DNA of 20,110 bases. It comes from a virus. The translations under genes and the position numbers were made by a program. The stretch covers positions 1-20,110 of the IMG/VR virus record IMGVR_UViG_3300022925_000240; one strand, given 5' to 3'. A model generated the notes under the pieces. It ran no database searches, was not told the origin of the DNA, and saw nothing but the letters and a program-made list of their open reading frames with translations. Each line of letters begins with the position of its first letter. Position 1 is the first letter of the stretch. Of the stretch, positions 2,503-20,110 are shown one piece after another.

Positions 2503-3734
2503 TACTTGCTCCAACTCTTAATTGCATTGAAGTTGTTCTTACTAAACTCCATACGATCAACTAATTTTACTGCACCGCTTTCTGTGCCAATTGCAACAAA
2601 CCCTTCTGGGTTCACTACTTTATATCCTGTATCTGTTTTTAACAATGACTTGATACTATCCACTTTGTTTAATTTATTTATAAGCATATTCTTTAGTGCA
2701 ATTATATCCTTGTAAACTGCAAGAGCACCTGCTATGCCCTCCATGTTATCATTTACAAATTTATTCTGTGCATTAATTTTATCCAAACGTTTCTTTACTG
2801 CTGGTGCTTGAGGATCTTGATTCTTAAGTTTGCTAATATCCTTCTGTACGTAATCATTGTACCATTTTGCAAAGTCCTGTGCAAAACTATTTGGATCTGC
2901 AATCTGTTGATCACCTCTGCGTATTCTTGCATTTACATATTGCATAAACAATTGTTTGTAATCGTTATTATTCACTGCATCAAAGTTTGCAGACTTCATA
3001 GCACTTGCAGTTGCATTAAGTCCACTTAATATTGCTTTGTTCTCTGCAGGTGTTAGACTTGCTTGTCCACTTAAATCTTTATAGGTTGCATCATCAAACC
3101 ATACACTGCTAGGTTTATTGTAGCCACCGATGTCTACACCAAAACTTGCAGTCATATCTGATATATTATCACCTGTATATGTTGTATGAAATATTATACC
3201 CATTTCACTTTGTGCAATTCGCTTGCCTAGTTCACTGTCCTTGGGTACTGCGTATGTAATTGTGTTAGGTTGAAATACAAAACTATCTTTGCCGTCTATT
3301 TCTGCTTCCTGTAAATCACCTTTTGTATACATCATGTCGCCTTGCACAACACCTTGTATACCTAGTTTACCAAGTTCTGCTAGTGCTATTTTCATTTTAG
3401 CATTTAAGCCTTCTTTAGTAATGTCACTGTCTATGTCTTGATTTGATTTGTACAGTTTAGGTGAAACATTAAATGCACCTTTTTTAGCAACAAAGAACTT
3501 ACCGTCCTGTGGGTCAATGCCTGTAACAATAGCAGGTGCTCCATCCCATTTTACTGTAACACCTTTGCCAACACTACCGCCTTCTTCTAGCATATCACGT
3601 ACACTGTTAATATATTGTAGAGCAGATTTGGCACCTGCGGCACCTTGAAGAAATATTAAATCTTCAATGTGTTCTAGATGAGTGTTCTTTCCTCCCTCAT
3701 CTTCTAAAACTGTTTTAAATTCTTTTAGACGCAT
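2502..3734 (-). CDS. Ligase-like covalent nucleotidyltransferase, probable internal head protein
   Basis: This 410-residue protein shows the ordered motifs of ATP-dependent ligases and capping enzymes. KWDG at 62-65 fits motif I, with Lys62 as the presumed AMP-accepting residue. FVAKKG at 81-86 and GDMMY at 132-136 fit motif III-like positions. IIFHTTY at 180-186 fits IIIa, PEGFVAI at 376-382 fits motif IV (EGxV), and VKLVDRMEF at 389-397 fits motif V. About 190 helical residues lie between IIIa and IV, much more than in typical ligases. The protein resembles a conserved but uncharacterised family I recall from marine T4-like phages. Its N-terminus, MRLKEFKTVLEDE, looks like a T4 capsid-targeting sequence, so it may be packaged and injected. 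Its start overlaps the upstream gene by 20 nt. The family assignment is from motifs only; activity and substrate are unknown. Confidence 0.6.
   Translation of the reverse strand: MRLKEFKTVLEDEGGKNTHLEHIEDLIFLQGAAGAKSALQYINSVRDMLEEGGSVGKGVTVKWDGAPAIVTGIDPQDGKFFVAKKGAFNVSPKLYKSNQDIDSDITKEGLNAKMKIALAELGKLGIQGVVQGDMMYTKGDLQEAEIDGKDSFVFQPNTITYAVPKDSELGKRIAQSEMGIIFHTTYTGDNISDMTASFGVDIGGYNKPSSVWFDDATYKDLSGQASLTPAENKAILSGLNATASAMKSANFDAVNNNDYKQLFMQYVNARIRRGDQQIADPNSFAQDFAKWYNDYVQKDISKLKNQDPQAPAVKKRLDKINAQNKFVNDNMEGIAGALAVYKDIIALKNMLINKLNKVDSIKSLLKTDTGYKVVNPEGFVAIGTESGAVKLVDRMEFSKNNFNAIKSWSK
2675..2682 (-). promoter_or_regulatory. Possible internal late promoter TATAAATA
   Basis: An exact minus-strand TATAAATA lies inside the 3' part of the ligase-like gene, about 170 nt upstream of the next gene's GTG at 2502. 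It could give separate late expression of the Gly/Ser-rich protein. The same bases encode Leu-Ile-Asn-Lys in an AT-rich gene, so a chance match is quite possible. Confidence 0.3.
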
Positions 3735-3978
3735 TGCTTTCGTTTACTTTTCTAATACCTCGTACAAACTTATTTTTATCCTGATGTTTGATACTGTTTA
3801 ATAATCTTCTTTCCAAGTCACCCGCGACTGTTTCGTCATAGTGCTTGTGCATTTCGTTAATAAGATTGATGGCGCTCTCTATCACATTAGTTGCTCGACT
3901 TTCTAAAACATGTTGCCTATCTTTTTCTACAATCATGCTGTTTAGTTCGTGTAATATACTACGAGTCTGTTTACGCAT
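3715..3978 (-). CDS. Small helical hypothetical protein
   Basis: This 87-residue protein starts MRKQTRSILHEL. It is predicted to be largely alpha-helical and highly charged, with no recognisable domain. The ATG at 3978 is the first of the leftward late block; AGGATAGGAT lies upstream as a possible ribosome binding site, and a GATAAATA element lies about 25 bp away. Its end overlaps the start of the ligase-like gene by 20 nt, so the two are probably co-translated. The string LHE near the N-terminus would fit the prohead protease consensus, but the leader does not match the MRL(K/R)EF pattern of its neighbours, so head targeting is only a weak possibility. Confidence 0.6.
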   Translation of the reverse strand: MRKQTRSILHELNSMIVEKDRQHVLESRATNVIESAINLINEMHKHYDETVAGDLERRLLNSIKHQDKNKFVRGIRKVNESNASKRI

Positions 3979-4070: not shown

Positions 4071-4802
4071 ATGTCAACAATAGAGAATTCTGGCTTGCAC
4101 TTCGCAACCCTAGCGAAAATAGCCTACCTAACAGAAAAAGACAGCAAACCAATTGCTAAAAAACTAGGTTACACAAAAACAAAACTAATAGATCACAAAG
4201 GTGCAGAATGTCTGTTTCTTGAGAACAGTAAGACTATTGTACTTGCATTCAGAGGTACAGAGCCAAAAGAGTTCAGCGATATAAAAGCAGACTTAAAAGC
4301 ATGGAAACGTAAAAGCCAAACAGAAGGCATGGTACATGCAGGATTTTACGATTACTTGGAACGCATCTGGGAAACAGTTGAGAATCATATAAACTATGGT
4401 ACCCGTGAGAAAAAAGCACTTTATATCTGCGGACACAGTTTAGGTGGAGCAATGGCGGCACTGGCGGCTAGTAGACTTAACGATAGAGTAGTTGCTTGTT
4501 ATACATATGGACAACCACGTGTTGGAGGCAGTGACTGGTGTGCAAAACAAACTTACGAGCATCACAGATATGTAAACAATAATGATATTGTGCCTCGTGT
4601 TCCGTTATGGATTATGGGATTCCGTCATAGAGGTGAACTACACTATATAAACTATTATGGAAATATTCGTAAGATGACACCTTGGCAAATTATCAAAGAT
4701 GGCTGGCGTGGTCGTATAAAAGCATGGAGTAAACTAGAGTTTTTTGATGGTGCTAGAGACCATAGTATGGATGCTTACGAAAATAAAATAGCCAAAAATT
4801 AA
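4071..4802 (+). CDS. Class 3 lipase-like alpha/beta hydrolase
   Basis: This 243-residue protein has the layout of class 3 (fungal-type) lipases. LAFRGTEP at 58-65 is the oxyanion region, and GHSLGGA at 121-127 is the nucleophile elbow with Ser123. YGQPRVG at 146-152 and NNNDIVPRVP at 169-178 follow, with Asp172 as the probable acid. His231 in DHSMDAY is the probable catalytic His. No signal peptide or membrane segment is seen, so it should act in the host cytoplasm, on membrane lipids or acyl esters. The start is supported by AGGAG 7 nt upstream. It is the first of two rightward genes placed between leftward blocks. A role in membrane breakdown at lysis or in host lipid use is inference; the fold assignment is secure. 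Confidence 0.85.
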   Translation: MSTIENSGLHFATLAKIAYLTEKDSKPIAKKLGYTKTKLIDHKGAECLFLENSKTIVLAFRGTEPKEFSDIKADLKAWKRKSQTEGMVHAGFYDYLERIWETVENHINYGTREKKALYICGHSLGGAMAALAASRLNDRVVACYTYGQPRVGGSDWCAKQTYEHHRYVNNNDIVPRVPLWIMGFRHRGELHYINYYGNIRKMTPWQIIKDGWRGRIKAWSKLEFFDGARDHSMDAYENKIAKN

Positions 4803-4830: not shown

Positions 4831-4853
4831 AGTGTGACAGAAAATGTCACACT
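4831..4853. terminator. 9-bp perfect hairpin; possible terminator for leftward transcripts
   Basis: AGTGTGACA (4831-4839) and TGTCACACT (4845-4853) form a perfect 9-bp stem with loop GAAAA, in the 89-nt gap between the lipase and polymerase genes. On the minus strand the stem is followed by TTATTTAGTA, a moderately U-rich tail, so it would better stop leftward antisense transcription coming through the polymerase gene. On the plus strand it has no T-run and could instead protect the 3' end of the lipase message. Confidence 0.5.
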
Positions 4854-4891: not shown

Positions 4892-6589
4892 ATGAAGATA
4901 CCTAAAGATGCGAAGGCTCAATTAGAACGATTACTCGGCAGATTCATAAGGCATATTCCAAACAAACCCGAATATCATAACAGGCTTATCGAAGAACTAG
5001 AGATCATACTCAAACTTCGCTTCGTCGATTACTTCCTAACAATTTGCGATGTACTGACGCTAACCCGTGACATTACACATATGACTCGTGGTTCAGCAGG
5101 GTCTAGTCTCGTCTGTTACCTACTTGGTATTACAGACGTGGATCCCATAAGATGGCAAATACCGGTAGCACGTTTCCTAAATCCTTTAAGGGATGACTTA
5201 CCAGATGTGGACATAGACTTTCCACACTGGCAACAGGCGGCTGTGATGCAAAGAGTATTTGATAAATGGCCAGGAAAAAGTGCTCGTATCAGTAACTACG
5301 TAACATACAAAGAAAAGAGTGCAAGGCGTGAAGCCGCACGACGTATGGGTGCATCTGGTAAACTCCCTCGTGGCTTTAAGTATGAAGATTTAGATATAGA
5401 CAAGGAAGAAGCAATGAGAATCGAACGAAAATTATTAGGCAAGAAGAGAGCAATATCAAAGCACTGTGGAGGAGTTCTTATATTCAAACATAATATGCCA
5501 AAAAGCCTAATAAATGGAGACAATCAAATATTATTAGACAAACATGAAGTAGAGGACTTGGAACATCTCAAAATAGATATCCTTGCGAATAGAGGACTCA
5601 GTCAACTACTGGAGATAGATTCAGAGACACCATTAGAAGCATACCCAGAAGAAGATTATGAAACAAGTCAGATGCTATGCAATGGTGATGTTATAGGAGT
5701 TACACAAGCAGAATCACCTGCTATGAGAAGATTATTTCAAGCAATACAACCAAAAAGTAAAAGTGATTGTGTGTTTGCAACTGCATTGATAAGACCAGTA
5801 GCAACTACAGGCAGACAAAAGGCGGCGTTCTTTCAAGACTGGACAGAACAAAGATTAGATGATACTATTGTGTATGAAGATGATGCAATTAAAAAGATAT
5901 CCAAACTTATAGGTTGTGATATGTATGAAGCAGATATGTATCGCCGTGCATTTGCCAAACGTGATGAAGAACGTGTTATGGAGTTCATGGAACGCATGGG
6001 CGACAGTGAGAACAAGGCGGAGATTATACAGGAACTATATGGACTAGGAAACTTTGGACTGTGTAGAGCTCATGCAGTAAACTTGGGTAGATTAATCTGG
6101 GCACTTGCATATCAAAAGGCACATAATCCAAAACAGTTTTGGCGGGCTGCACTCAAACATTGTCAAGGCAGTTATAGACGTTGGGTACACAAAACAGAAG
6201 CCAAGAACGCAGGATGGGATTTACGTGAACTAGGACTACCAAACGGTATAACAGAGTCACCACAAACACAATATAAACGTTATGGATACTGGACACAACC
6301 AGAATTTATGCCAAATATGTTTGTACAGGAAACCTGGGGAGACCGTGTAAACTTTGCAGGACTTGTTGCAAATGGTAGAGTGTTCAAAGGAGAACAAGGA
6401 AGGTACGTTACGTTCTTAACACTAGGTATTGCTAACGGTGAATATGTTGATGTTACAGTAAAGAAGCCTTTTGGATATAGAGATCATGATGTTGTAGTAG
6501 GCAGTGGCAAAGTACGTTATAGCAATGGTGCCCGTTATATAGACTGCTATGACGCTAAAGGTCATAGGCTGGACAGGTATTTAAACTAA
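4892..6589 (+). CDS. C-family (DnaE-type) DNA polymerase core lacking PHP domain
   Basis: This 565-residue protein matches bacterial Pol III alpha in block order. TRGSAGSSL (65-73) is followed by GITDVDP, ARFLNP and PDVDIDF (104-110), where Asp105 and Asp107 match the catalytic pair. KHCGGVLIF (190-198) comes next, then LKIDIL (226-231) with Asp229 as the third catalytic Asp. The fingers (about 255-425) include ALIRP (298-302) and RRAFAKR (351-357). NFAGLV...GRYVTFLTL (about 487-511) marks a C-terminal OB fold. The N-terminal PHP domain (about 280 residues in E. coli DnaE) is absent, and little room remains for the beta-binding region. The start is supported by GAGG 5 nt upstream. It should extend primers in phage replication if active. 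T4-like phages normally use B-family gp43; whether this replaces or supplements it is unknown. Confidence 0.85.
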   Translation: MKIPKDAKAQLERLLGRFIRHIPNKPEYHNRLIEELEIILKLRFVDYFLTICDVLTLTRDITHMTRGSAGSSLVCYLLGITDVDPIRWQIPVARFLNPLRDDLPDVDIDFPHWQQAAVMQRVFDKWPGKSARISNYVTYKEKSARREAARRMGASGKLPRGFKYEDLDIDKEEAMRIERKLLGKKRAISKHCGGVLIFKHNMPKSLINGDNQILLDKHEVEDLEHLKIDILANRGLSQLLEIDSETPLEAYPEEDYETSQMLCNGDVIGVTQAESPAMRRLFQAIQPKSKSDCVFATALIRPVATTGRQKAAFFQDWTEQRLDDTIVYEDDAIKKISKLIGCDMYEADMYRRAFAKRDEERVMEFMERMGDSENKAEIIQELYGLGNFGLCRAHAVNLGRLIWALAYQKAHNPKQFWRAALKHCQGSYRRWVHKTEAKNAGWDLRELGLPNGITESPQTQYKRYGYWTQPEFMPNMFVQETWGDRVNFAGLVANGRVFKGEQGRYVTFLTLGIANGEYVDVTVKKPFGYRDHDVVVGSGKVRYSNGARYIDCYDAKGHRLDRYLN

Positions 6590-7092
6590 GTTTTAACGCT
6601 ATCTAATTGTATAAGAGGTATTCTTATTTTTTGTTGTGATATCCATAATATAGTATTGGCAATTTGTTCAGGAGTTACTAGATTTTCTCCAACTCCGCCC
6701 ACAACTATATAAGAAACTTTTACTCCGGTAATACCGGTTTCATCACTTAATTTAACACTATAAGATTTTAATTGTCTTTTGCTATTTGCGTATACACTGT
6801 TATCATCTGTGTTTTCAAGGGTAGTTCCAATATTAAAAATATGTCCTGGAATGTTTTCTTGCATCCACATAGAATGAACAATATCTGTTAGTTGTTTTTG
6901 ATTATCAAAGTTAATATAGGCACTGTTTACAAATACTGTATAATCTAGTATTGTTTCTCTGAGACGTTGTTGTGTGTCTAAACTAGTAAAGTCCCATCCT
7001 GTACTAACACTAGCAGTTGTGACTGAACCTAACTGTTGTAGCCCCCAAGCAATAGTCTTTCGCTCAGGATTTCCTGTACAAAATATTTTCAT
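6586..7092 (-). CDS. Short-chain dehydrogenase/reductase-like protein
   Basis: The frame can be extended to 7116, but I chose the ATG at 7092: it overlaps the upstream stop as ATGA and has GGAG about 9 nt before it. The 168-residue product begins MKIFCTGNPERK, a Rossmann-like beta strand and turn with a degenerate glycine motif. It has FVNSAYI (54-60) where SDRs carry NNAG, and YANSK (101-105) fits the YxxxK catalytic pair. It is much shorter than usual SDRs (about 250 residues). The residues after YxxxK look like a normal strand-turn (VSYIVVGGV). Substrate is unknown. It follows a radical SAM gene, so it may act on the same product. Its TAG stop overlaps the TAA of the converging polymerase gene. 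Confidence 0.55.
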   Translation of the reverse strand: MKIFCTGNPERKTIAWGLQQLGSVTTASVSTGWDFTSLDTQQRLRETILDYTVFVNSAYINFDNQKQLTDIVHSMWMQENIPGHIFNIGTTLENTDDNSVYANSKRQLKSYSVKLSDETGITGVKVSYIVVGGVGENLVTPEQIANTILWISQQKIRIPLIQLDSVKT

Positions 7093-8234
7093 AATAGTAA
7101 ACTCCATTCCGGACACAGTTTACAAAAATCAAGATTGCGAATACTGTCTGTACGTCTTACAATATCCCAGAACTTTGTATGAGGTTTTTCTTCTACATCT
7201 AACATTGCAAGTAAGTTGGATATTTCAGGATATTTACTGAACTTATCCACAAGTACATTCATAGTGTTCGAACTTATCCAATCCAAACTGTATGTACCTA
7301 AACATTTTTGAAAAATTAGTTCAACTGGGTCGCCTAATCTGTTTTCTGCAAAGTTTTCCTTATGCCAGAGGAATAGTTCATCTAGATAGAATAGGTTAAG
7401 ATATCCCCAGGTACAATTTATTTTGAACATGTGATTTACTGGCATATTATTATAAAACCAATTAATAGTTTCTACTGTGTGTTCCCAACTTGCACCAGTA
7501 CGTTGATATTCAAATCTATCGCCTATATCATCTATACTAAAATAAAGTTCTATTAGTTTGCATTCACTCCACAATTCCAATACTTCTTGTGTTACACGGT
7601 TAGTACCATTTACATTATAAAATACTCTAACATCGCTTAGTCCTTTGCTCTGTTTAATATTATACAATAGTTTAATGTGTGCATCACTGAGAAAAGGATC
7701 GCCACCGCCATGAAAGTGAACACTGTTAATATTTTTTAGATATTCTAAATCGTTAATGGTAAGGTATTGATCTTTTCTATATAAAAAATTATCCATGTTA
7801 GTATCAGGATAAAGTTTTGCCCAATCGCTTATCCATTTACTACTATTGTTAGGTCCACAAATAGTACATTTAAGATTGCACAAGTTACCCACACTATAGT
7901 CTAATGCTTTAGGAGTATCTGTAAGATTTATGTCAGTGTCCTTATGATAGTTTTCGTACAATTCTTTACTACTCATACGTCTACTGACAAGTCCTGCTTT
8001 TTCTTCCCGATAACAGTTCTGACATCCTGGAATAAGTTTTCCTTGTGTAATACTATCAATAATGGCAAGATGTTCAGCGCCGTGCCATGCCTCATCAGGT
8101 GTAGTATCAGTAACAATATATCCTTTAAAATAACTACAAGGGTTATATCCTATTGTATTTCGTGTACTCCAAAATGCTTGATTTTTAAATATCTCATAAC
8201 AGAAACCTGGCTTAGACTTTATATCGTTATTCAC
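7089..8234 (-). CDS. Radical SAM enzyme with extra N-terminal cysteines
   Basis: This 381-residue protein has the canonical 4Fe-4S motif CNLKCTIC (Cys119, 123, 126) and HGGGDPF (175-181), the SAM-binding GGE-like stretch. Extra Cys33 and PGCQNC (Cys71, Cys74), plus a C-terminal CKLC, could bind an auxiliary cluster, as in twitch/SPASM-type radical SAM enzymes acting on peptides or small molecules. The start is GTG at 8234, inside the last codons of the helicase gene, with AGGG 7 nt upstream. Substrate is not evident; no precursor peptide is obvious next to it. The downstream SDR-like gene is joined by an ATGA overlap and could be a partner. Confidence 0.8.
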   Translation of the reverse strand: MNNDIKSKPGFCYEIFKNQAFWSTRNTIGYNPCSYFKGYIVTDTTPDEAWHGAEHLAIIDSITQGKLIPGCQNCYREEKAGLVSRRMSSKELYENYHKDTDINLTDTPKALDYSVGNLCNLKCTICGPNNSSKWISDWAKLYPDTNMDNFLYRKDQYLTINDLEYLKNINSVHFHGGGDPFLSDAHIKLLYNIKQSKGLSDVRVFYNVNGTNRVTQEVLELWSECKLIELYFSIDDIGDRFEYQRTGASWEHTVETINWFYNNMPVNHMFKINCTWGYLNLFYLDELFLWHKENFAENRLGDPVELIFQKCLGTYSLDWISSNTMNVLVDKFSKYPEISNLLAMLDVEEKPHTKFWDIVRRTDSIRNLDFCKLCPEWSLLL

Positions 8235-9624
8235 TCTTTAACCCTGCTAACATGTCTTTGAGTTTACTGCTTTGTACACTTGCAGTAATCTTACCAGTGT
8301 CGCCCTCAGGTGCTTCAACAACTCCTGAACTTCCTTTGTTTTTAAGTTGTTCATAGATACTACTACTTTGTTTCTTAAACTGCTGGTACTCTTGATCCTC
8401 GCCTAAGTCACGAATACGTAAACTTTCTATATCAAACTCTAAGTCAATCTTTTGCCCAACACCACTACTACTTCTAGTCTTCATAAGTTGTAGTTGATAC
8501 CTGCCACGTTCTCTCATAGCACGACTTGTAAAGATACCAAACACATTGTCAGCAGTATTAATCTTACTAAGTCCACCACTTATATGACTGTGATCAAACT
8601 CTATCTCATCTACTGCACCTCTGTTCAACTGCGAAGCAGTAACAAATACACAGTTTAATTCTTTTGCTAGGTTACGTAATTCTTCACTTACATATTTGTC
8701 TTTCACAAACAAATCACTTGGAGATACTTTTGCACTTACTGGCATAAGCAAATCTAAATAGTCAATAAGAAGGAAGTCTACATTCCAACCATTTTTTATC
8801 TGTAATTCTTTTAAGTATGCTCTTACATCATTAACATTACTCTGTGCTGGCATGTATTTTATCTGTAGTTTGCCTGCCTTTTTGCCAGCCATCTTTACTT
8901 TCATCTCTACTGTTTCTAAATCTTTAAATACTTCCTTAGTAGATACATTTGTTAGCATACTATCTATTCTCATAGCACTAAGACCTTCACTTAGTTCTAG
9001 TGTCAAGTATACACCATTCAATCCATTTGTTATCCAGTTCACTGCTAAGTTCTGCATGAACAAACTTTTACCACTACCAGATCCTCCAGCAAATATATTC
9101 AGTTCACCTTTGTTCATACCACCAAACAACTTTTTATCCATTGCAGGCCAGCCTGTTGTAATCTGTCCATTGTTATCTTTAAGTGCCATAAGTCTTGCAC
9201 GAGGATCAGCAAAGTAATCTGTGCCCATGTCCTTTGTAAGACTTATTTGTACTGCATCTTTAATAATCTTTTCTACTGGTTCATATGTGCCTTTTTCTAA
9301 TAAGTCTGCACTCTTAAGTATTGCACGTTCCAGTTCCTGTCTTTTAGTAAAACCTTCAAACTCTGCTAGAAACCAATCATTATGGCTTTCACTTATATCA
9401 GGCACTGGCTTTAGCTCAACACCTGTAACTGCACGAACTTGTTCATAAGTAGGCAAAGCACCATGTTCATCACTATGTTCTTTTATAAACTTTGCAGTAT
9501 CAGTTAGACTCCTGTCAAAGTTTTGCACATTATAAATGTTCTGTACACGCACAAAATTTTGTGCATCATTCATCATCATTTCTAAAAATAATTTTTGTAA
9601 ATCTGTTGTATATTCTTTAGCCAT
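8227..9624 (-). CDS. 41: Replicative DNA helicase, T4 gp41/DnaB type
   Basis: This is a RecA-fold hexameric helicase of 465 residues, close to T4 gp41. Walker A is GGSGSGKS (180-187). LLIDYLDLL (285-293) is Walker B with Asp288. FVTASQLNR (327-335) is the DnaB-family sensor block. The N-terminal ~150 residues are helical, as in gp41, and the C-terminal tail is Ser/Gly/Lys-rich. A longer frame reaches 9651, but I chose the ATG at 9624 because it overlaps the upstream TAA as TAATG with GGGAAG just before it. It should unwind the replication fork 5'-3' and work with the primase encoded two genes upstream. A radical SAM gene separates the two. Confidence 0.92.
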   Translation of the reverse strand: MAKEYTTDLQKLFLEMMMNDAQNFVRVQNIYNVQNFDRSLTDTAKFIKEHSDEHGALPTYEQVRAVTGVELKPVPDISESHNDWFLAEFEGFTKRQELERAILKSADLLEKGTYEPVEKIIKDAVQISLTKDMGTDYFADPRARLMALKDNNGQITTGWPAMDKKLFGGMNKGELNIFAGGSGSGKSLFMQNLAVNWITNGLNGVYLTLELSEGLSAMRIDSMLTNVSTKEVFKDLETVEMKVKMAGKKAGKLQIKYMPAQSNVNDVRAYLKELQIKNGWNVDFLLIDYLDLLMPVSAKVSPSDLFVKDKYVSEELRNLAKELNCVFVTASQLNRGAVDEIEFDHSHISGGLSKINTADNVFGIFTSRAMRERGRYQLQLMKTRSSSGVGQKIDLEFDIESLRIRDLGEDQEYQQFKKQSSSIYEQLKNKGSSGVVEAPEGDTGKITASVQSSKLKDMLAGLKSE

Positions 9625-10505
9625 TAACACTTCCCACAGTTGAACAGACAATAGTCTGGCTTAGTATCATGTATTGTAGCATAAAAATTACTAAAACGCC
9701 TAATACATTCGCTTAATTTATTATCTTTTATTGTCATTTTATTTTTATACCATTCACTTTTATAGTAAAAGTTATAATGTTTAGTATCACAACAAGGGGT
9801 ATATGTACCATCTGCTGCTATATAATGTTTTGTATTATTTTTACACCTAGGATCTATTTCTAAACTTTCACTATCTATCTTAAATTGTTGCTTTGCTTTA
9901 TGTTTACTACCAAAAAAATTTTTATGAGGGCGTAAATAATCACTACCATTGTTCCATCTTTCACTAGGCATCAATACAAATTCATCCATTCCTAATTTGT
10001 ATGCAAGTTCTTTTGTATACTCTATATCATTTATGTTGAATGCAAAAGGAATATATTTCCATATTATTTTGACATTGCTTTTCACACATACTTCAATCCC
10101 ATCTTTTATACTATTCCAATCACCATTTACTCTATATTTTGTAAAATTTTCTGGTGTCCCATCAATACTAAAATTGATAATATCTTTACTATCAAGTAGA
10201 CTTACTAATTTTTCCCACCATTGTTTATTTTTTCTACTGCCATTTGTAGTTATTCCTACACTCTCACATTTTTGTTTGGATAATTTAATTAAACTTAAAA
10301 AATCTCTATGATATATAGGATCACCTAAGTTGCCACAAACATTAATGTGTCTTACAGGAACATCAATAAAATTAAAAAATTTATTAATGTCTAAATCTTG
10401 TATAGAAAAATTATTATTACCAAATTTGTTTATAAAAGTGGTTCGTTCACATCTTGGACAAGCGAGTGTGCATCTACTAGTCGGCTCAATGTGTAGATCT
10501 ACCAT
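9624..10505 (-). CDS. Radical SAM enzyme with SPASM-like cysteine cluster
   Basis: This 293-residue protein starts close to its cluster motif: CTLACPRC (Cys12, 16, 19). CGNLGDP (57-63) and TTNGS (86-90) match the SAM-binding and following strands. The C-terminal region holds Cys221, CC at 238-239, Cys267 and CLFNCGKC (286-293), a SPASM/twitch-like arrangement for auxiliary iron-sulfur clusters, typical of enzymes modifying peptides or sugars. The ATG at 10505 overlaps the primase stop. The gene is unrelated in detail to the second radical SAM enzyme two genes on. Its place between primase and helicase, usually functional partners, suggests co-expression rather than a shared job. Substrate unknown. 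Confidence 0.82.
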   Translation of the reverse strand: MVDLHIEPTSRCTLACPRCERTTFINKFGNNNFSIQDLDINKFFNFIDVPVRHINVCGNLGDPIYHRDFLSLIKLSKQKCESVGITTNGSRKNKQWWEKLVSLLDSKDIINFSIDGTPENFTKYRVNGDWNSIKDGIEVCVKSNVKIIWKYIPFAFNINDIEYTKELAYKLGMDEFVLMPSERWNNGSDYLRPHKNFFGSKHKAKQQFKIDSESLEIDPRCKNNTKHYIAADGTYTPCCDTKHYNFYYKSEWYKNKMTIKDNKLSECIRRFSNFYATIHDTKPDYCLFNCGKC

Positions 10506-11455
10506 CGCTTTCTCTGTAAATTTATTTTAAGACGCATAGTTTGCTTTGCATCTATAATACTTTTAAGTGTAAACAGTTTTCCATATCTTACAACTGCGTC
10601 ATTTACATCTTTAACATCACTTTCCCATTCAGGAAAACTAACACTCCAACCAAACTCCAGTGCATCATCAATTAGTTTTTGTCCTGCACGATCTTTATCT
10701 GGCACAAGTATAACTTCTCTACCTAGTGTATCTATAATCTGTGCTTGTGTTTCGCTACAACGATTACTCAATATACCTACTCCACCTATACACATTGCAT
10801 CTAGCAGTCCTTCTGTTACTACTACAAACCTACTGTTAGACAACTGATTATCAATGCCATAAACGAAACCACTATCATGACTAGTAAAATATTTGGGTCT
10901 TGATTCATCGTCGATACTCCTTGCACTAAATCCAATTGTTTTTCCTTGCCAAGTAAAAGGAACAATTAGTCTTTTCCACATGCCAGCAGCTTTGCTATTG
11001 CTATACATAATTTTACCTAATGGCAAAGCTCTACTTTCAGCATATAATCTTATATGATCTGGTAATTGATTTGTACTATTCTCAGGTAATTCTCTAGGAC
11101 TAAATTCTACTGTAAACGTTTCGTCATCTTCTAAAACTTCTTCAACTGTATCTTTTATACGTAATGCTTCTATGTTAAGCATCTGTCTGGTGTTCTCATC
11201 AACACCTAACCAAGTAAGCAGTTTCCTTAGTTTAAAACTAATATGTCTACCGGGTTGCCAACCTGTCTTAAAATTACAATTGAAACAATGATAACTTATA
11301 GCATCACCTGAAGCAATTACTCCGCCTCTGTTACGTTTGTCCATGCTTTCGCCATTGTGATGACAACAAACTGCATTAAAACTAATCCAGCCATTAGTAG
11401 TTCTCTTTTGTTTGCCAGGCAAACTATCTATGATCGTTTGTTGAATACTATTCAA
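10499..11455 (-). CDS. 61: DNA primase, T4 gp61 type
   Basis: This 318-residue protein has a zinc-binding N-terminus: CCHH at 30-33, followed by YHCFNC with Cys57 and Cys60. A TOPRIM domain follows, with VTEGLLDA (213-220, acidic Glu215) and LVPDKDRAG (250-258) carrying the metal-binding DxD. This matches T4 gp61-like primases, which make RNA primers for lagging-strand synthesis with gp41. The start appears to be TTG at 11455, overlapping the upstream TGA. No in-frame ATG occurs before the zinc motif, and the first residues resemble gp61 proteins as I recall them. The ribosome binding site is weak, so translation is probably coupled to the gene before it. Confidence 0.9.
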   Translation of the reverse strand: MNSIQQTIIDSLPGKQKRTTNGWISFNAVCCHHNGESMDKRNRGGVIASGDAISYHCFNCNFKTGWQPGRHISFKLRKLLTWLGVDENTRQMLNIEALRIKDTVEEVLEDDETFTVEFSPRELPENSTNQLPDHIRLYAESRALPLGKIMYSNSKAAGMWKRLIVPFTWQGKTIGFSARSIDDESRPKYFTSHDSGFVYGIDNQLSNSRFVVVTEGLLDAMCIGGVGILSNRCSETQAQIIDTLGREVILVPDKDRAGQKLIDDALEFGWSVSFPEWESDVKDVNDAVVRYGKLFTLKSIIDAKQTMRLKINLQRKRW

Positions 11456-13425: not shown

Positions 13426-13797
13426 ATGCCACCATTAGCAGAAGAAATATTTGAACAATATCCATTTTTAAGTTTAGTTACATATGGTGGACAAGAGTAC
13501 GTAGGTATAATACAAAACCAAGACGATAGTTTTCTAAGTATGTATGACTATAGTAAAATAGATTCTGATCTTAAAACATTATTTTTAGAACTAGGTGATG
13601 CTTGGTGGTGGGAATCAAATAGGACTATACCTATAAATTTATTTCTAAAAAAGGATTTTATACCATTTAGTAGATATCTTATTACATTTAATATAAAAGA
13701 CACAGAAGTTGTGCGTGGTCCTAGTGTTAGCATAGCAGAACTTGCTAAGAAAAGAAGCAAGCGACGTAATATACAATTAGTGAAAAAAGTTAAATAG
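13426..13797 (+). CDS. Small conserved phage hypothetical
   Basis: This 123-residue protein starts MPPLAEEIFEQYPFL, has a central GDAWWWESN (52-60) and a basic C-terminus (KKRSKRRN). It resembles a hypothetical I recall from marine T4-like phages. The mixed acidic/basic ends suggest a nucleic-acid or protein-binding role, but no motif proves it. It has its own late promoter 40 bp upstream and AGAGA before the ATG. The next rightward gene starts 3 nt after its stop. Confidence 0.65.
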   Translation: MPPLAEEIFEQYPFLSLVTYGGQEYVGIIQNQDDSFLSMYDYSKIDSDLKTLFLELGDAWWWESNRTIPINLFLKKDFIPFSRYLITFNIKDTEVVRGPSVSIAELAKKRSKRRNIQLVKKVK

Positions 13798-14172: not shown

Positions 14173-14389
14173 GTTCATAGCCAGGAAAGTCTTCTTCTAC
14201 AGTATCTATTACGTGACCTAACATACTTTTTATTTGATCATCTGTAAGTAATCCTTTATATAATACAAGTGCATGTTTAAGAAGCATTGTTGCCATATAC
14301 ATATGATCATCTTCATCTTTTATATTTTTATCTATATGCTTTGTAAGATTTTCTTGTATTTCTTGCATTCTTTCTAAATTATTTTTCAT
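14141..14389 (-). CDS. Small acidic helical hypothetical
   Basis: This 82-residue protein is predicted to be almost fully helical, with a run of acidic residues (KDEDDHMYM, about 24-32) and a basic C-terminus. No family recognised. It starts by overlapping the end of the miniature DnaE-like gene and ends inside the converging membrane-protein gene, which overlaps it in antisense by 32 nt. It is the last gene of the leftward chain from UvsW. Confidence 0.6.
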   Translation of the reverse strand: MKNNLERMQEIQENLTKHIDKNIKDEDDHMYMATMLLKHALVLYKGLLTDDQIKSMLGHVIDTVEEDFPGYELTKKSKKTMH

Positions 14390-14951
14390 TTTGTTCCTCT
14401 AATATATTCATATGAACTACAACTAATTGTGCATAGGCTACTGCGTGTGCTTTCTTAAAACTATAACTATCCTGTCCTGCTTTGTGCCATATAGTTTCTC
14501 CTACTTCACGCCATGTTTTTCCTATTAGGTGTCTTTTTGCAGGACGTATAACTGCTAAGAACATTGCCATACGAGGTATACTAGTTATATCCTCAGGCAT
14601 TCTAGCCATTGTCTCGAAGTGTTTACCAACGTGTATTAGTTGCTCAAAGAAATCTCTATTGTGTAAATTAGACCAATTAGGCTCTCTCATCATTTCCACT
14701 AAGTGTATTTCATTTTTTATATGTTGATAAACATTTACATTAAGTAAATCTAATTTGAAGTATCCTAAACTTTCAGCAGTTTTATGATCTACAGTTGCAA
14801 TTCCATCATGTGCTTGTGGAACTTTATTAAAATAAACACCTGTATTATGCTTATTGCCATTTTCTAACCTTGCTCCTATACCCTTCACATGTTTTAGTAA
14901 ATGTGTTCTATCAGCAAAGTCTATATCTACATCTGGCATGTCGTATATCAT
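14379..14951 (-). CDS. Miniature DnaE-like (C-family polymerase palm) protein
   Basis: This 190-residue protein keeps, in order and with very short spacers, blocks of DnaE polymerases. PDVDIDF (6-12) has Asp7 and Asp9 in the catalytic positions. KHNTGV (34-39) corresponds to KHxGGV, and FKLDLL (65-70) supplies the third Asp (68). VIRP (134-137) and FKKAHAVAYA (165-174) match the later fingers block. It lacks the RGSAGSS palm block, most of the fingers, PHP and OB domains. All blocks are shared with the 565-residue DnaE-like gene at 4892. I recall similar hypotheticals in T4-like cyanophages, which suggests it is not a decaying fragment. Its frame is intact, and it is coupled by ATGA upstream with AGGA before the ATG. 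Function unknown; polymerase activity seems doubtful at this size. Confidence 0.7.
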   Translation of the reverse strand: MIYDMPDVDIDFADRTHLLKHVKGIGARLENGNKHNTGVYFNKVPQAHDGIATVDHKTAESLGYFKLDLLNVNVYQHIKNEIHLVEMMREPNWSNLHNRDFFEQLIHVGKHFETMARMPEDITSIPRMAMFLAVIRPAKRHLIGKTWREVGETIWHKAGQDSYSFKKAHAVAYAQLVVVHMNILEEQNEK

Positions 14952-19806: not shown

Positions 19807-20110
19807 TTATATATTCCAATCGGCTTTCTCAACCGTAAATGGATAGTTTGCTTCTTTATAGAAGTTTTTACGTTTTGTTAGATGTCTTTTTGCAAACTTG
19901 CAAGTACTGGTTATATCCCAGATTTGTACGAAGTCTTTGTCTTCTGCTTTTCGGATTCCACGTCCAATACTTTGGATAACCCTAACAAAAGACTTACCAG
20001 GCTCAATAAGCACAAGATTAAAAATGCGAGGAATGTTAATCCCCACCGCCGCCACCCCGTAGGTTGCAATGATAACCTTTCCTGTAGCAGTTGATACCTC
20101 GTCATATTCT
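19807..20110 (-). CDS. uvsW: UvsW helicase, C-terminal part (runs off right edge)
   Basis: The open frame continues beyond the right edge, so only the last ~100 residues are seen. They include GKVIIATYGVAAVGINI (motif V) and VIQSIGRGIRK (motif VI with the arginine fingers) of superfamily 2 helicases, followed by VQIWDITSTCKFAKRHLTKR and a short tail. This matches T4 UvsW, which unwinds branched DNA and R-loops and shifts replication from origin to recombination mode. The frame passes GTG at 20055, but the true start lies outside the window. Confidence 0.85.
   Translation of the reverse strand, partial: EYDEVSTATGKVIIATYGVAAVGINIPRIFNLVLIEPGKSFVRVIQSIGRGIRKAEDKDFVQIWDITSTCKFAKRHLTKRKNFYKEANYPFTVEKADWNI

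Follow-up and report, generated by a model that had tools for sequence, protein, structure and literature searches.

The 20,110-nucleotide stretch of DNA analysed here (the window) comes from a marine giant phage and carries a gene for a 565-residue DNA polymerase of the DnaE type, or C family (Table 1). The question raised by this locus is what such an enzyme does in a phage whose relatives encode the family B polymerase (PolB) gp43. An earlier note on this DNA proposed either that the protein replaces gp43, or that it supplements gp43 or acts as a specialised repair or translesion enzyme. The genome that was then called T4-like should be read as that of a jumbo phage of the Rak2/PA5oct/Atu_ph07 kind; its gene order is that of the group 2.2 jumbo phages (121Q, GAP32, Phosso, Paride and Atu_ph07), with PolB found in the relative G014 and not in the window fragment.

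Table 1. Features of the window discussed in the text.
Feature	Coordinates	Strand	Length	Remarks
Small conserved ORF	3715-3978	-	87 aa	Other edge of insertion site
Class 3 lipase-like hydrolase	4071-4802	+		Variable cassette neighbour, no constant partner
Hairpin	4831-4853	-	9-bp stem	Terminator-like
Single-chain PHP-less C-family (DnaE) DNA polymerase	4892-6589	+	565 aa	
SDR-like and radical SAM genes	6586-8234	-		Between polymerase and gp41 in window
Radical SAM gene	7089-8234	-		
gp41/DnaB-type replicative helicase	8227-9651	-		Convergent neighbour of single-chain polymerase in relatives
Radical SAM gene	9624-10505	-		
DnaG/gp61-type primase	10499-11455	-		Marker of replication module
ORF opposite C unit	13426-13797	+	123 aa	
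C-terminal half (C unit) of split minimal Pol III alpha (phrog_11778)	14379-14951	-	190 aa	
UvsW helicase, C-terminal part	19807-20110	-		Runs off window

Two Pfam families were found in the polymerase, DNA_pol3_alpha (PF07733, E 2.9e-43, residues 22-232) and the fingers (PF17657, E 5.7e-15, residues 246-369), both far over the cut-off, and no family beyond these, PHP included. The only PDB sequences that it matches are the DnaE proteins of Thermus, Mycobacterium and E. coli. Its palm contains the motifs RGSAGSS (66-72) and PDVDIDF (104-110), the fingers extend from about residue 246 to 430, and an OB fold occupies residues 482-565. The three Mg-binding aspartates that define the C family (D401, D403 and D555 in E. 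coli; D463, D465 and D618 in Tth) are present as D105, D107 and D229, the last within KIDIL, and align with those of Thermus DnaE. Together with R66-G67-S68 and K227, they are invariant in an alignment of 30 rows made up of 15 phage and 15 bacterial sequences, bacterial DnaE included. An AlphaFold2 model (pLDDT 80.3, pTM 0.81, with low confidence at residues 303-324 and in most of 447-482) has the predicted palm of the Pol beta type together with thumb and fingers. This model resembles the DnaE structures 5lew (Z 34.4 over residues 8-450) and 3e0d (Z 32.5 over residues 6-559), and its C-terminal OB fold is SSB/PriB-like. The profile matches, the aligned aspartates and the modelled fold thus bear out the earlier reading of this gene as a C-family polymerase with catalytic aspartates 105, 107 and 229 and a C-terminal OB fold. 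The GC content of the gene (0.403) is higher than that of the window (0.346). A perfect hairpin (AGTGTGACA..TGTCACACT) lies between the lipase and polymerase genes.

Assignment to the C family requires just the polymerase active-site region, and PHP and (HhH)2 domains are reported to be nearly universal among its members (Timinskas et al.; PMC3919608). The domain set of the 565-residue enzyme departs from this pattern in both respects and is therefore unusual. In nearly all bacterial and other phage DnaEs that are not cut by a contig end, some 180-430 residues (PHP) lie ahead of the core, the few exceptions being contig fragments, a broken gene or an outlying longer protein; the window enzyme and all its relatives start directly at the core. 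The reading frame is open for just 12 codons upstream of the ATG (577 aa in total), and PHP (PF02811) has no match elsewhere in seven records, including G001, G002, G014 and LR756508. Given the short upstream frame, the core-first relatives and the lack of PHP in these records, we take its absence to be real and not the result of clipping. Supply of PHP in trans was likewise rejected, as the seven records hold no PF02811 match. About 50 residues stand in place of the (HhH)2/beta-binding region ahead of the OB fold, and the chain ends with that fold at residue 565, leaving no tau-binding CTD. None of the features of a DnaE1 replicative subunit (tau-binding CTD, PHP, clamp-binding region) was found. 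The word 'streamlined' in the earlier note, which had also recognised the missing PHP domain and the scant beta-binding region, is therefore apt for a protein in which PHP and CTD are lacking and (HhH)2 is almost gone. No description of a single-chain PHP-less domain set was found in papers of the open-licence literature, and the set differs from the C-family architectures given there.

More than 100 relatives of the polymerase were found. Comparison with G001 gives a dN/dS of 0.069 (dS 0.56) and comparison with G002 a dN/dS of 0.046 (dS near saturation), values that point to strong purifying selection and, with the number of relatives, exclude chance. The gene evolves as slowly as gp41, for which dN/dS versus G001 was left out because an N-terminal frame shift spoils it. 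The loss of several otherwise near-universal domains might suggest a catalytically idle DNA-binding or regulatory relic. Such a fate is highly improbable for a protein whose three aspartates and RGSA and K-D motifs are invariant and whose dN/dS is about 0.05-0.07. Recent transfer from a bacterium was rejected, since the best matches hold no genome contig above 34% identity.

In phylogenetic trees the single-chain proteins, including that of LR756508, form one clade (support 100/100) inside a clade containing DnaE2 and ImuC (99/97), yet not as the sister of ImuC. Divergent Planctomycete second-copy DnaEs are nearest, followed by Spirochaete/Bacteroidota DnaE2-type proteins and then by ImuC, with replicative DnaE and other phage DnaEs on the far side of the tree. 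Grouping with the replicative (DnaE1/DnaE3 side) and phage DnaEs was rejected (AU p 0.003), as was a direct sister relation with ImuC (AU p 0.0001). Because the trees, built on 282-617 columns, have long branches and bacterial rows picked by similarity, they offer support rather than proof, and as such they favour divergent second-copy, DnaE2-type polymerases, not replicative DnaE1, as the closest bacterial kin. Of the NCBIfam models, the error-prone one gives the window protein its highest score, but its lead is only 5 bits and the score is under the cut-off. ImuB-like Y-family genes adjoin L320, L372, L321, L357 and L373, several Spirochaete-side rows. No such partner (PF00817, Y-family/ImuB) was found in 12 records, which include G014, LR756508 and the fragments G001 and G002, and its absence from G014 and LR756508 indicates that there is no canonical ImuABC mutasome.

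We also considered the genes in neighbouring positions. The earlier note had paired the polymerase with the lipase and set it apart from the replication chain. The lipase lies upstream of the polymerase gene in 41 of 104 matching loci (some contigs being counted twice) and is missing in 36 despite room, so that this pairing is incidental. The neighbour that stays constant is the replicative helicase gp41; in many relatives the two genes stand tail to tail with 2-11 bp between their aligned ends, and the SDR-like and radical SAM genes that intervene in the window are missing from that spot in G001 and G014. Two radical SAM genes flank gp41 in the window, and relatives have different radical SAM genes in the corresponding places, which marks a hot spot for such genes around gp41. 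In G001 (L017, gp41 at 61147-62568) a stop codon falls in the region of the annotated TTG start of the window's gp41, and the true start is thus probably an internal ATG (MAKEYT...).

The same site also occurs without the polymerase gene, in close as well as more distant relatives. In L217, L220, L222, L233, L237 and L245, gp41 is followed directly by the 87-residue ORF, and in the close relatives L189-L191 and L193, where gp41 is 86-88% identical, by lipase and radical SAM genes only. These loci show the gene to be an optional cassette whose site is variable, with the proviso that the empty-site contigs are short and the gene could sit elsewhere in those genomes. G015, a relative of 367 kb, yielded only the N unit of a split polymerase (discussed below) with a profile that also detects single-chain proteins.

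Proximity to gp41 could reflect a helicase-coupled role in primer handoff or lagging-strand synthesis, in which the enzyme, at the gp41/primase complex, would elongate RNA primers and then hand them on to PolB. The tail-to-tail arrangement in many relatives, the C-terminal OB fold and the precedent of Bacillus DnaE, which does likewise ahead of PolC (PMC3919608), all fit this role. We nevertheless regard it as unlikely, because the convergent orientation means that there is no operon, presence of the gene is optional, and the protein groups with DnaE2-type enzymes and not with Bacillus DnaE.

Where near-complete genomes are readable, in G014 and LR756508, the single-chain enzyme accompanies PolB. 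G014 is a contig of 338,435 bp with an exact 123-bp direct terminal repeat (also L170) and is thus probably a closed, complete genome. Its single-chain protein is 70% identical to that of the window and is encoded at 23.6 kb, with the C unit of the split polymerase at 30.2 kb, PolB at 223 kb and the N unit at 257 kb. Three DNA polymerase systems (PolB, both halves of split Pol III and the single-chain enzyme) are therefore found together in this genome. The G014 PolB gp43 has 887 residues with intact exonuclease and polymerase motifs (DIET, DINSLYPS, YGDTDS), and its region is 100% identical over 22.7 kb to a contig from another sample. LR756508, an uncultured phage of 484 kb, also has both PolB and a single-chain DnaE. 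Its PolB is in pieces, with two ORFs of 1017 and 621 residues about 3 kb apart and other ORFs between them (L160, 258500-268500), and that of Atu_ph07 consists of two adjoining ORFs of 417 and 565 residues (L163); inteins, introns or natural splits are possible causes. G001 (131.6 kb) and G002 (117 kb), from the same clade as the window, carry the single-chain gene and the C unit. Neither PolB nor the N unit was found in these two fragments, PolB was not found in the 20 kb of the window, and a search of PolB contigs for single-chain neighbours that would tie PolB to the window's clade found none. From G014 we infer that PolB is present in this clade.

These data bear on the possibility that the single-chain enzyme is the main replicase of its clade, either with gp43 displaced or with bulk synthesis shared between the two, one strand each. 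Conservation as strong as that of gp41, adjacency to gp41, intact catalytic residues and the lack of PolB in the 131-kb and 117-kb contigs would be expected of such an enzyme. This proposal is unlikely, as PolB with intact motifs is present in the probably closed G014 and PolB also occurs in LR756508, the site is empty in close relatives, there is no PHP, (HhH)2 or CTD for processive holoenzyme contacts, and the tree position is away from replicative DnaE. Coexistence with PolB and the gene-less close relatives likewise tell against the earlier suggestion that the protein replaces gp43. The other half, that it supplements gp43 or serves in repair or translesion synthesis, fares better, favoured by the same coexistence and by the DnaE2 side of the tree.

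A second DnaE-type ORF in the window, missed in the earlier note, encodes the C unit. It matches phrog_11778 with E 5.6e-49, its catalytic aspartates D7/D9/D11 and D68 are invariant in 26 relatives, and its predicted model resembles the palm and fingers of PolC/DnaE (Z 9.5 and 9.0). Its slot (UvsW - ... - C unit - opposite-strand ORF - ... - primase - gp41) is the same in Phosso, Paride (PA5oct group), Atu_ph07, 121Q, GAP32 and one Vibrio jumbo phage. The opposite-strand ORF adjoins the C unit in all jumbo phages compared, matches named phages at about 37-53% and has no Pfam match; its product may act together with the split polymerase. The corresponding N half (phrog_11127) stops just ahead of the PDxDxDF motif. 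Iyer et al. (2021; PMC7824862) reported such a split minimal Pol III alpha from group 2.2 jumbo phages, beside a family B polymerase, and the C half in the window means that this phage group has two independent C-family systems beside PolB. The 565-residue polymerase is one chain and not two short chains broken just before PDxDxDF.

It is conceivable that the single-chain enzyme works with or backs up the split polymerase, for instance in a pair with the C unit, which lies 8 kb away in the window, occurs in many of the single-chain contigs that extend far enough on its side, and has the same PDxDxDF/KxDxL active site. This is quite unlikely given that some jumbo phages have N and C units and no single-chain enzyme, neither a separate C unit nor an N unit was detected in LR756508 beside its single-chain enzyme, and G014 has its own N unit. 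A single clade for both forms is disfavoured (AU p 0.03), and derivation of the single-chain enzyme from the split pair is thereby disfavoured as well, not decisively.

On balance, the protein is probably a catalytically competent, single-chain, DnaE2-like C-family polymerase that serves as an optional accessory beside a PolB replicase. We infer an accessory gap-filling or translesion polymerase that has no proofreader of its own and is probably distributive. A tblastn search found no DnaQ exonuclease of the 121Q/GAP32 type in G001, G002 or G014, and with neither PHP nor an identified DnaQ partner the enzyme would be without proofreading of its own. With neither an (HhH)2/beta-binding region nor a tau-binding CTD, it would have no fixed link to a clamp or clamp loader of the host type, and the C-terminal OB fold would hold the ssDNA template. 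These features together suggest distributive, low-fidelity synthesis of short patches where there are gaps or lesions, with PolB copying the genome; such patches may arise in gap filling, translesion or recombination-coupled synthesis. Should the role be translesion synthesis, the absence of PHP, (HhH)2 and a Y-family gene suggests that the enzyme would act by itself or together with other proteins of the phage, UvsX or gp41 for example. Evolution as slow as that of gp41, as would be expected of a core replication gene, and the abutting position beside gp41 count against this reading, as does the absence of the usual DnaE2 partners (ImuB/Y-family) from G014 and LR756508.

There is a small chance that three polymerases of two unrelated folds operate at once, with the stripped single-chain Pol III acting beside gp41 as a true replisome component at the fork. 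It would then follow that PHP, (HhH)2 and contacts with clamp and tau are all dispensable for a working C-family polymerase. An enzyme that lacks PHP and (HhH)2 and has half as many residues as E. coli alpha would reveal the minimal working Pol III core, and as a small natural protein would offer a tractable structural and biochemical model. PolB, split Pol III and the single-chain enzyme in one lineage allow the division of labour between unrelated polymerases to be tested, and also whether a phage carries its own translesion or mutagenesis polymerase.

Among known systems, full-length phage DnaEs (phrog_405; BcepF1, tabernarius and Circinus) have the same C-family core, but they are about 990-1180 residues long with about 240-320 residues before the core and belong to another part of the tree. 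The DnaEs of OR847176 (L290) and OR844993 (L289), unverified 'Listeria/Staphylococcus phage' records, group with Bacillota or Mycoplasmatota chromosomal DnaE and are possibly bacterial contamination in the phage collection. Bacterial DnaE2 (ImuC, DnaE2B-type) resembles the 565-residue enzyme in being on the same side of the tree, in lacking a CTD and in being an accessory mobile gene, and H-x-GG and NR(A/G)L-type motifs are common to the enzyme and the divergent second-copy DnaEs. DnaE2 retains PHP and (HhH)2, its binding sites for ImuB (PMC12926913), whereas the phage enzyme has neither domain, and the phage genomes examined yielded no Y-family gene. The 574-residue DnaE of LR756508 shares the architecture and clade of the window enzyme (38.5% identity, 100/100) and coexists with PolB, but no gp41 was found within the 21.6-kb stretch around it, no split C unit was detected in its genome, and no relatives of it were found in IMG/VR. 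PF07733 itself had previously been recorded for roughly half of one cluster of marine jumbo phages (PMC9123017). The split minimal Pol III (PMC7824862) is likewise a phage C-family polymerase without PHP that occurs beside PolB and keeps the catalytic aspartates. It consists of two short proteins (about 170 and 190 aa) whose genes lie far apart, and most of the thumb and OB fold is missing from it, whereas the 565-residue enzyme is one chain with thumb, full fingers and OB fold and forms a separate clade. The split form is already published; the new element is the complete single-chain PHP-less form alongside PolB and the split form.
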